Of a stretch of DNA of 37,101 nt, positions 28,464 through 32,352 are shown in pieces (positions within the stretch are counted from its first letter, which is position 1; each line of letters starts with the position of its first letter). The stretch comes from Nitrospirota bacterium (GTDB taxonomy: Bacteria; Nitrospirota; Thermodesulfovibrionia; Thermodesulfovibrionales; UBA6898). The stretch spans positions 1 to 37,101 of the forward strand of contig JAKAIZ010000004.1 of the NCBI GenBank assembly GCA_021814065.1, written 5' to 3'. The translations under genes were made by a program, and so were the position numbers. Under the pieces are notes generated by a model. It saw only the letters and a program-made list of their open reading frames with translations. It did no database searches and had not been told where the DNA came from.

Positions 28464-28543
28464 GCAGAAAACCTTATCGATATTATACCTGCTCGAGAAC
28501 AAGAATGATTTTCAATTGTGGCTAAGGCGTGTTAATATTTCGA

Positions 28544-28987
28544 ATGAAGATCGTCGCACAGAACAGAAAGGCCTTCCATGACTATTCGATAGAAGAGACT
28601 GTCGAGGCAGGTATCGTCCTGACCGGCACCGAAGTCAAGTCCCTGCGGGAGGGGAAGGCAAACCTCAAGGACAGTTACGTCCTCGTCAAAGATTCTGAAG
28701 TCTTCCTCCTCAACTGCCACATAAGCCCCTATACCCACGGGAACATCATGAACCATGACCCCGTAAGGACCCGCAAGCTGCTTCTGCACAAGAAGGAGAT
28801 CGCTCGCCTCCTGGGCAAGACGATCCAGAAGGGATATTCGCTTATCCCACTTAAAATTTACTTCAAGGACTCCCGCGCAAAGGTCGAGGTTGGCCTTGCG
28901 AGAGGGAAGAAGATGTACGAAAAGCGCGAGTCTATCAAAAAACGCGAGGCAGACCGCGAAATAGAGAGGGCCATGAAAAGCCGCTGA
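28544..28987 (+). CDS. smpB: SsrA-binding protein
   Basis: [45 protein letters not shown] and C-terminal [13 protein letters not shown]. Confidence 0.98.
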
Positions 28988-29009: not shown

Positions 29010-29354
<345 letters not shown>

Positions 29355-29372
29355 GAATAATATCTAATCTAG

Positions 29373-29519
29373 TCCTATGTAAAACGTGAATGCGACGAAT
29401 GTGGTCAGACTTTTTTAACTGAAAGCGCAGCAGCGTGTCCGGTGTGTGGGTGTACCTGTTATCATCTTAGGGTGAGATCGTTGAACCGGTGGCCTCTGGT
29501 CAAGGCGAAACGCGCATAG
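29373..29519 (+). pseudogene. Zinc-ribbon-like open frame without a start codon (SYVKRECDECGQTFLTESAAACPVCGCTCYHLRVRSLNRWPLVKAKRA*)
   Basis: Open frame from just after TAG (29370-29372) to TAG (29517-29519). Two CxxC knuckles (CDEC, CPVC). No ATG/GTG/TTG at the 5' end, so it is likely truncated. Confidence 0.45.
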
Positions 29520-29662
29520 ATGACCTTCTCCCGGTGGTCCGGTCGATACTGCGCGAGTTAAGCCGTAAAACTTATGAGCGCACATTCCAGGGCCAGGAGT
29601 GGGCCCGACTCATTGATGAGGCGCTTGAAGAGATCCGGGGCCGCTTATCACCGGCAAGATAG
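29489..29662 (+). CDS. Small hypothetical protein, 57 aa (start codon uncertain)
   Basis: GTG 29489 to TAG 29660-29662: MASGQGETRIDDLLPVVRSILRELSRKTYERTFQGQEWARLIDEALEEIRGRLSPAR. Below the supplied ORF cutoff. Overlaps the preceding frame. Confidence 0.4.
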   Translation: MASGQGETRIDDLLPVVRSILRELSRKTYERTFQGQEWARLIDEALEEIRGRLSPAR

Positions 29663-29675
29663 AGAATTTCCCTAT

Positions 29676-29705
29676 TTGACAAGAAGGGCACAGTGGGTTT
29701 AGACT
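29676..29705 (+). promoter_or_regulatory. Putative promoter for the 158 aa ORF
   Basis: TTGACA (29676-29681), 18-nt spacer, TAGACT (29700-29705). GGAGGA ribosome-binding site at 29759-29764. Confidence 0.5.
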
Positions 29706-29769
29706 TGAAGAGACAACTTGGAAGGGTTGTCACAAACAATGCCGGAAGGCAGAAAGATGGAGGAATCCA

Positions 29770-30246
29770 ATGGTTGACACCAAGAAGTTAGAAGAAGTAG
29801 CAACCCTCCTTAACAAACAGTCAGACTCCCTCAACAAAACGCTTCAGAAGATTCAAGACAAGCTCAATAGCCTCAACGTGGGTCTTGAGGCGTGGGCTAG
29901 CGGTTGGCTCTCAAATGAATCCTTAGCGATGGAAGAGGACAGCAGGGGGAACATTATAACTCCATTCCCGGGCGCTACCTCAAGGGCGCGTGTGGTTTTT
30001 TGCGGTTATGCCCGAACCGGACGGGGATGGGGATTAGCGATCCGGCCGGCAGTGGTTTACTACGATGCTGAACTGTGCTATCTGGGCGAACACAATGGAG
30101 ATCCGCAGCCACTGATAGAAACTCCAAGGGATATTCGCATTGCGGCACTAGAGCACATCCCCGAGGTGATCGGTCAACTACAGGAGAAGGCCGAGCAAGC
30201 TATCGAAGCCATAGAGAAAGCTAAAGTTATAGCAGACGAACTATAA
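29770..30246 (+). CDS. Hypothetical protein, 158 aa, helical/coiled-coil-like termini around a compact core; no family recognised
   Basis: Good ribosome-binding site, promoter-like sequence and downstream terminators. Sequence MVDTKKLEEVATLLNKQSDSLNKTLQKIQDKL...QLQEKAEQAIEAIEKAKVIADEL. Confidence 0.75.
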   Translation: MVDTKKLEEVATLLNKQSDSLNKTLQKIQDKLNSLNVGLEAWASGWLSNESLAMEEDSRGNIITPFPGATSRARVVFCGYARTGRGWGLAIRPAVVYYDAELCYLGEHNGDPQPLIETPRDIRIAALEHIPEVIGQLQEKAEQAIEAIEKAKVIADEL

Positions 30247-30275
30247 ACAACCCAAACCCCTTCCAGTTGTCTCTT

Positions 30276-30303: not shown

Positions 30304-30369
30304 GCTCATACGTCGCATGAGACAGAGGTTCTTTCCAAGGCGGTATAGATAGACCGGCCCCTTTCAATG

Positions 30370-30401
30370 GCCCTGGGGCGTTACTCCGGGGCTTTTTTTT
30401 G
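30370..30401 (+). terminator. Second Rho-independent terminator
   Basis: GCCCTGGGGCGTTACTCCGGGGC stem-loop followed by TTTTTTTT. Confidence 0.75.
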
Positions 30402-30502: not shown

Positions 30503-30525
30503 TTCGCTTCCCGGCGCCGCCACCA
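30503..30525 (+). repeat. Putative attachment-site repeat, copy 2 (tmRNA 3'-end-like)
   Basis: TTCGCTTCCCGGCGCCGCCACCA. Two mismatches to 29332-29354. Confidence 0.7.
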
Positions 30526-30838
30526 ATCTTTTGTTCAAGGGGTTAATTTTAGGACTGAAACGTTATTTCGCTTTGCTCTCGTTTTGCTTTTAGGTCTACC
30601 GCCTGCCCTCTCCGGTTGACCAATTCTTCAAGTCTCAGGAGCGTGGCATGGCACACAGATCTTTTAAAGAGTTCACGACGACGCGATATTTTCGAGCGGA
30701 CGAAACTCTATGATGATTACGAACAGAATTGAAGACCTTTCAGCATCTCACAGGAGTTTTCATCGAGAAGCTTACCCAAAAGCATTCCGCTACAAGGTTA
30801 TCTATCCCTGTCTTTCCTTATAGTCACCGCAAGACAGC

Positions 30839-30894: not shown

Positions 30895-32352
30895 CTATGG
30901 TTTTATCGTTACGTAGATATACCCGCCGCTCCGGTAAATCAATAGGAGCACGTCTTCTTTCGCTCCGATCTTCGAGGCAACATCCTCATAATTTTTCAAC
31001 CCCCGTATCTCTTTGCGGTTGATTTCCTCGATCACATCGTTCTTTGCCAGTACGCCACTTGCGGGACTGGTCTCGCTCACCTCTGCGACGATCACGCCTT
31101 TTACGTTGTGCGGAAGGCCGAGGGCATCCCTCTCACCGGGGGTGATCTCCTGCACTGAGACTCCCGAGAGCGCGTTGTGGTGCTCAACGGTCCTGGTCAC
31201 TTTTGCTGCCTCCGGCATTTCTCCGATGATGATCTTGAGCGTGACCTCTTTACCGTTTCTCAGTACTTTGACGTCTGCCTCTTTGCCCGGGGCCGTATTC
31301 GCAGTCATATTCCTTAGGCTCGTGGTATCTTCGACCGTCTGGCCGTCATATGCTATGATGAGGTCCCCGCGTTTCAGCCCGGCCTTTTCCGCAGGGCTGT
31401 CCTTCATCACATCCGTTACCAGCGCACCGTGCTCCCGGGAAATCCCAAGAGACTTCGCAATCTCAGGGGTCAGATCCTGGATCGATATACCGAGCCAGCC
31501 TCGTATGACCTTGCCATATTTGAGAATGCTCTGGGCCACGGCATTTGCCATGTCGGAGGGGATTGCGAAGCCGATGCCCATGTATCCGCCGCTCGTAGAA
31601 AATATAGCCGTATTGATCCCGACAAGCTCGCCGTTGGTGTTGACAAGCGCACCGCCGGAATTGCCCGGATTTATCGCAGCGTCGGTCTGAATAAAGTCTT
31701 CATAGGCAGATATCCCCACATTCGATCTTCCGGTTGCGCTTACAATACCCATCGTGATCGTCTGGTTCAGTCCGAAGGGATTGCCTATCGCGAGGACGAC
31801 GTCGCCGGGCTTCAACAACCTGGACTGGCCGATCTTTATTGCCGGCAGGTCCTTTGCCTCGATCTTTACAACAGCGATGTCAGTCTTGGGATCGGCCCCA
31901 ATGACCTTACCCTTGAACTCACGTTTGTCATAAAGGATGACCTTGATCTCGTCTGCGCCCTTCACCACATGGTTGTTGGTCAGGATGTAACCGTCCTTTG
32001 AGACAATCACCCCTGAGCCAAGTGCAGCTTGTTTGAATTTTCTCGGGTGTGCCTGTCCCTCCCCAAAAAACTTTCTGAACATCGGGTCGTTAAAAAAGTC
32101 GCCGAAGGGACTTCCCTGCATAGTGACAGTCGTTGTGGTGGAAATATTCACAACCGATGGTCTTGCCACCTCTGCCACTTCAGACAACGCCTGGCTCATC
32201 TTGCCGAGGAACTCCCTCGATGCAACTGAAACCCCCGAATCCTGCCCCCGCGCCGTCTGCTGCAGTCCAGGCCCTAACAGACATAAAAACATTACCGTAA
32301 CAGCCGCTGTCCTTATCAGCAAAGTACTCTTTCTTTTACTGCTCGCGTTCAT
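30895..32352 (-). CDS. HtrA/DegP-family periplasmic serine protease with PDZ domains
   Basis: GSGVIVSKDGYILTNNHVV, TDIAVVKIEA, QTDAAINPGNSGGALVNTNGELVGINTAIFS, PDZ regions RGWLGISIQDLTPEIAKSLG. Confidence 0.96.
   Translation of the reverse strand: MNASSKRKSTLLIRTAAVTVMFLCLLGPGLQQTARGQDSGVSVASREFLGKMSQALSEVAEVARPSVVNISTTTTVTMQGSPFGDFFNDPMFRKFFGEGQAHPRKFKQAALGSGVIVSKDGYILTNNHVVKGADEIKVILYDKREFKGKVIGADPKTDIAVVKIEAKDLPAIKIGQSRLLKPGDVVLAIGNPFGLNQTITMGIVSATGRSNVGISAYEDFIQTDAAINPGNSGGALVNTNGELVGINTAIFSTSGGYMGIGFAIPSDMANAVAQSILKYGKVIRGWLGISIQDLTPEIAKSLGISREHGALVTDVMKDSPAEKAGLKRGDLIIAYDGQTVEDTTSLRNMTANTAPGKEADVKVLRNGKEVTLKIIIGEMPEAAKVTRTVEHHNALSGVSVQEITPGERDALGLPHNVKGVIVAEVSETSPASGVLAKNDVIEEINRKEIRGLKNYEDVASKIGAKEDVLLLIYRSGGYIYVTIKP

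Follow-up and report, generated by a model that had tools for sequence, protein, structure and literature searches.

Why should a small gene remain intact, with its own expression signals, in decayed DNA beside ssrA, and what might such a gene do? The question is raised by P0001, a protein gene in a Nitrospirota genome that we examined within a stretch of 37,101 nucleotides, hereafter called the window. An earlier note on this DNA had described an intact frame of 158 codons preceded by TTGACA-18-TAGACT and GGAGGA and followed by a double terminator, and all of these are present in the sequence as follows.

29676-29705, plus strand: sigma-70-like promoter-like site TTGACA-18-TAGACT, predicted +1 at about 29712
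29759-29764, plus strand: Shine-Dalgarno (SD) sequence GGAGGA, 5 nt upstream of the ATG
29770-30246, plus strand: protein gene P0001, an open frame of 158 aa
30276-30295, plus strand: intrinsic terminator 1 (predicted hairpin and T-run); a similar sequence also lies 3′ of the L004 homologue
30369-30393, plus strand: intrinsic terminator 2 (predicted hairpin and T-run), from the scan

The promoter-like site matches the consensus at 10 of 12 positions and is the best among five sites (shuffled sequences give 2.1 +/- 1.4); the unit's own promoter and terminator are defined by consensus scan only. No frame of comparable length was found on the strand opposite the open frame. A 13 nt repeat common to smpB and this frame is taken as chance.

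The surroundings of the gene are of a different character. The features needed to follow its history are these.

28529-28987: smpB
29010-29354, plus strand: ssrA (tmRNA, tag ANNELALAA), whose 3′ end is the integration site
29332-29354, plus strand: left att copy, the 23 nt tmRNA 3′ end; the same 23 nt bound a 13.4 kb element in congener G001
29373-29662, plus strand: pseudogene of a small Zn-ribbon and helical protein, in two frames and without a start codon (from translation)
30503-30525, plus strand: second att copy, matching the tmRNA 3′ end at 21/23 positions
30526-30651, minus strand: 3′-end remnant of a tyrosine integrase gene, peptide ATLLRLEELVNRRGQAVDLKAKREQSEITFQS compared with ATPRRLEELVNRRGQVVDLNAKRDGNQKTSQS of the G001 element
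30895-32352, minus strand: htrA/degP gene

P0001 lies in a segment of 1,171 bp bounded by the tmRNA 3′ end and its imperfect copy; no further copies of the 23 nt sequence occur within the window. The G+C content of the segment is 50% versus 53% for the window, and the other genes annotated in this DNA are ordinary chromosomal ones. The pseudogene has intact relatives of 85-96 aa at L190 and L192, and a tyrosine-integrase-like open frame lies near the L192 copy.

In congeners G004 and G002, smpB-ssrA is followed by htrA within about 0.1 kb, and because ssrA is directly followed by htrA, the site is empty there. In G001, the 13.4 kb element lies between two perfect 23 nt att copies and is again followed by htrA. 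It carries a tyrosine integrase fragment beside ssrA, replication and recombination genes, and an XRE-like regulator, with all gene names except that of the integrase assigned by reading the sequences. By sequence, this element (L077:83-13468) includes DnaB-, RecT-, and exonuclease-like genes, and its integrase, open for only 165 aa, may be broken too. Positions 30503-30651 of the window are 81% identical over 156 bp to the att site and integrase end of the G001 element. This remnant past the second att copy, which the earlier note had missed, is all that is left of an integrase here, and none lies within the 1.17 kb segment. P0001 is absent from all four sampled congeners.

These comparisons show that the DNA between ssrA and htrA in the window was acquired and that the genes of the element itself are broken. 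The simplest history, and the order of events that we infer for this site, starts from a G001-like element at ssrA; a second insertion then separated that element from ssrA, and both decayed. Given that the neighboring genes are frameshifted or truncated, it is well supported that P0001 is retained island cargo. The earlier note had proposed just such a self-contained unit kept in decayed ssrA-linked DNA, and the att repeat, the empty sites in G004 and G002, the G001 element, the integrase remnant, and the frameshifted Zn-ribbon neighbor all speak for it.

A related arrangement has been described for the ssrA islands of Dehalococcoides (PMC3146451), which feature tandem ssrA 3′-end repeats, some segments without their own integrase, and a serine recombinase. 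The window segment resembles these islands in its integration at the tmRNA 3′ end, its repeats of about 20 bp, its tandem layout, and its lack of an integrase. It differs in being only 1.17 kb long and in its association with a tyrosine integrase, as seen in the G001 element and in the window remnant.

The earlier note also called the protein an orphan. This description no longer holds, as one close (47% identical), three distant, and one remote plasmid homologue were found. Among 231 genomes of the class, the search yielded a single close homologue, located on L004 in G026, a member of another family of the same order; its 47% identity to P0001 extends over the full length. The gene sits downstream of tRNA-Ala(CGC), in an element whose left end is common to the congeners of G026. 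When G121 and G026 are compared at this tRNA gene, the flanks are the same and roughly 0.8 kb containing the homologue is missing from G121. This comparison shows that the P0001-type unit is intact and has also been inserted into an unrelated element linked to a tRNA gene. The L004 unit has promoter-like and terminator-like sites of its own, with promoter-like sites in that region being no commoner than in shuffled sequences.

Several other features of the tRNA-Ala elements can be recorded. The gene next to the homologue (L020:10917-13325) combines a helicase, an MTES_1575 nuclease domain, and TPRs; its product matches PADLOC model PDC-S37 (E 7.5e-55), and the contig breaks off before the far end of the gene. 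Short tandem motifs at L004:1257-1345 and 2128-2160 (AATGTCCTGAATGTCCTGA; CCGACAAAAGCGACAAAAGTA) border the inserted unit, have similar counterparts in G121, and are read as an iteron-like control region of the element. In G038, about 9.5 kb between tRNA-Ala 3′-end repeats (L091:850-10353) is rich in PAS/histidine-kinase-like genes, such that this island carries sensor genes as cargo.

This distribution is reminiscent of morons and other prophage accessory loci (PMC7067206), which are self-contained genes in mobile elements, with their own promoter and terminator, located outside the life-cycle modules. The P0001 unit likewise has its own predicted promoter and terminator, lies outside the life-cycle modules of its element, and is present in one tRNA-Ala element (G026) but not at the corresponding position of its sister (G121). 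Unlike morons, it sits in the wreck of an ssrA element and not in a working prophage, and the ends of its predicted mRNA pair with each other, as described below.

Could the gene simply be neutral, an ordinary survivor of a lost prophage or island that decay has yet to reach and that does not benefit the host? Its neighbors in the segment have decayed and the four sampled congeners lack it, both as expected for such a remnant, and P0001 may owe its intact state to nothing more than recent arrival. However, the frame, the SD, and the terminators are all intact. Moreover, P0001 and the L004 homologue are identical at 58/72/37% of codon positions 1-3, a pattern that, together with the full-length homologue at 47% identity, indicates that the frame is more than chance and has evolved as a selected protein. 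This pattern and the conserved arms in the untranslated regions (UTRs), both seen between two families, demonstrate selection on the family rather than in this host today. We consider a neutral leftover rather unlikely, and the sequence features suggest that P0001 may be expressed and maintained at present.

The most distinctive property of the unit is found at the ends of its predicted transcript, where an inverted repeat (29708-29728 / 30255-30275) that had escaped the earlier note surrounds the open frame. Its parts, and a possible leader, are as follows.

29710-29726, plus strand: 5′ arm of the transcript-end pairing, GAGACAACTTGGAAGGG, where the mRNA is predicted to begin
29739-29777, plus strand: possible 12-codon leader open frame, MPEGRKMEESNG*, whose stop overlaps the main start; weak, from two sequences only
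30258-30273, plus strand: 3′ arm of the transcript-end pairing, CCCTTCCAGTTGTCTC, just ahead of the terminator

At the 5′ end of the predicted transcript, the first ~17 nt are complementary to the 16 nt immediately before the terminator. The left arm starts at the predicted transcription start, and the homologue in G026 is arranged alike. The duplex energies in the two homologues are -28.6 and -26.1 kcal/mol, values matched by 4/2000 and 1/2000 shuffles. Because the observed energy is also attained by 0.3% of segment pairs drawn at random from the window, one genome alone would be unconvincing. In partition-function folding of both full transcripts, the 5′ arm pairs with the last 70 nt with a probability near 1.

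Comparison of the two loci further delimits what is conserved. The similarities of the 5′UTR and of the 3′UTR between P0001 and L004 are each equaled by 1/5000 shuffles, and that of the terminator by 36 of 5000, whereas the promoter, the upstream DNA, and the downstream DNA have no similarity. With the UTRs alike and the promoter and flanks not, conservation extends over the transcript and no further. In these two genomes, the beginning of the predicted mRNA and the sequence ahead of the terminator are conserved and complementary, and they are predicted to form a clamp of 14-16 bp; the prediction draws on a pair of sequences in which compensatory changes are almost absent.

Because these two sequences have almost no compensatory changes, a role of the arms at the DNA level has to be weighed. 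The inverted repeat might consist of the terminal repeats that bound a tiny mobile cassette, or form an invertible switch or a pair of operators, and its length and arrangement would fit, as would arms conserved in sequence and not just in complementarity. Against this, the insertion that distinguishes G026 from G121 reaches clearly past the arms, and the conserved DNA likewise extends beyond them, from about +1 to the terminator. The arms contain indels, and neither a flanking duplication nor a nearby recombinase gene is seen. Finally, the arm pair is specific to the P0001 gene, the motif being at background level among relatives (121 genomes). A DNA element of this kind is thus quite improbable. 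Viral loci found with the arm motif were also inspected, and they have no convincing paired arms like those of the P0001 gene.

If the arms instead act in RNA, two functions suggest themselves. Pairing of an mRNA 5′ end with a CU-rich 3′ stretch is known for hok, aapA3 (PMC6733600), and icaR (PMC3868564), and masking of the SD through such 5′-3′ pairing has been established for aapA3 and icaR. P0001 mRNA resembles hok, aapA3, and icaR in its predicted long-range end pairing, which is present in both homologues and exceeds shuffled controls. By analogy, the CU-rich 3′ arm could mask an SD-like GGAAGGG serving a leader that is coupled to the main frame, leaving the full-length mRNA silent until its 3′ end is trimmed. 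GGAAGGG is indeed located in the 5′ arm, and in both genomes it lies before a leader start codon (ATG, GTG) that is followed by CC, at distances of 12 and 11 nt; in the window, moreover, the leader stop overlaps the main start. The GTG-started counterpart is found at L004:1457.

Other observations do not fit a switch of this type. In L004, the leader has no coupled stop and extends into the main frame for about 57 codons. In contrast to these systems, the predicted pairing leaves the main SD of P0001 mRNA uncovered: deleting the 3′ arm in silico changes main-SD accessibility only from 0.31 to 0.36 and from 0.64 to 0.63, the interval used for the window value, 29757-29762, being shifted by two bases from the exact SD. 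Since accessibility is essentially the same with or without the 3′ arm, control of translation via the main SD is not predicted, which favors a role in stability over SD masking. In addition, no antisense gene was identified, and the product is a soluble-looking protein of 150-odd residues (158 aa) rather than a small hydrophobic toxin like those of hok and aapA. A translational switch is therefore rather unlikely for this gene.

The protein itself offers further hints. Its sequence is rich in charged residues, and no long hydrophobic stretch is evident. The earlier note had anticipated helical N- and C-terminal segments around a core, in agreement with a low-confidence fold that has an N-terminal helix (~4-46), a core of beta strands (~62-89), and a C-terminal helix (~119-157). 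This fold was predicted from a single sequence with a pLDDT of 53, too poor for a fold search. Nor was a family recognized by the earlier note, and our searches concur: Pfam, NCBIfam, PHROGs, and the PDB gave no match above the curated or significance threshold for the members tested, and PADLOC gave no model match for the three members tested. P0001 is a member of a rare, uncharacterized family in which a beta core with a GYAxxxGWGL motif lies between two long helices.

The earlier note had pointed to the genomic neighborhoods and the dN/dS of homologues as informative, and both can now be described. Beyond the tRNA-Ala-linked element of G026, three distant homologues of 147 aa, about 21% identical and from one genus of another class, occur in operons, a few bases downstream of a gene for a periplasmic binding protein, and without the clamp. 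The dN/dS of about 0.1 among them indicates that they are under purifying selection. The close and distant branches match in a profile comparison (E 3e-8), and a profile of the five members retrieves a plasmid protein of Granulicella tundricola (WP_013572855.1, pACIX901; E 1.4e-9). The latter has in common with P0001 the core motif GYAKVDGKWGLALR, APRALR..A..KIPDLL, and helices on both sides, and it differs in being 214 aa long with an extra C-terminal tail, in residing on a megaplasmid, and in being only about 25% identical. Because the distant homologues are ordinary operon genes, the function of the protein need not depend on mobile elements.

The earlier note would have counted the confinement of homologues to phage structural modules against its reading. 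We found no relatives at E 1e-3 in phages, in viral contigs, or in two scans that covered each GTDB species with one genome. E-values of the first search stage apply per genome, and borderline matches across hundreds of genomes were set aside. A 32-residue match in G370 may be genuine or chance. Weak matches in G218, G174, G175, G180, and G225, of which L095 is an integrase, are taken as chance, and a match on a Pseudomonas koreensis plasmid is a chance one to a gene that reads as a DNA-ligase-like protein.

We favor as probable the interpretation that P0001 is a moron-like accessory gene with a predicted end-clamped mRNA, left behind after decay of an ssrA element. A self-contained transcription unit would have been carried in by an integrative element and kept as the ssrA element decayed. 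The clamp could shield the mRNA from 5′-end-dependent and 3′-exonucleolytic decay, and with this protection a foreign locus would steadily express a small soluble protein. In a weaker variant, the clamp would mask the SD-like GGAAGGG of the short leader. The protein most likely acts as a helical oligomer in the service of cell or element; exclusion or defense would be examples. This accessory or defense-type role is a guess, drawn only from the cargo position of the gene and the defense-like neighbor of one homologue. It is also conceivable, but highly improbable, that the paired mRNA termini form a conserved structure that is recognized, possibly by the encoded protein, in an RNA-protein accessory module that has moved between integrative elements as a defense or exclusion gene.

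These findings add an unnamed protein family, present in the phylum of the window and on an acidobacterial (Acidobacteriota) plasmid, to the cargo of mobile elements. They also provide a clean two-genome case in which conservation outside the coding frame is located precisely at both ends of the predicted transcript. This raises the testable question of whether paired mRNA ends keep small cargo genes expressed in a new host.
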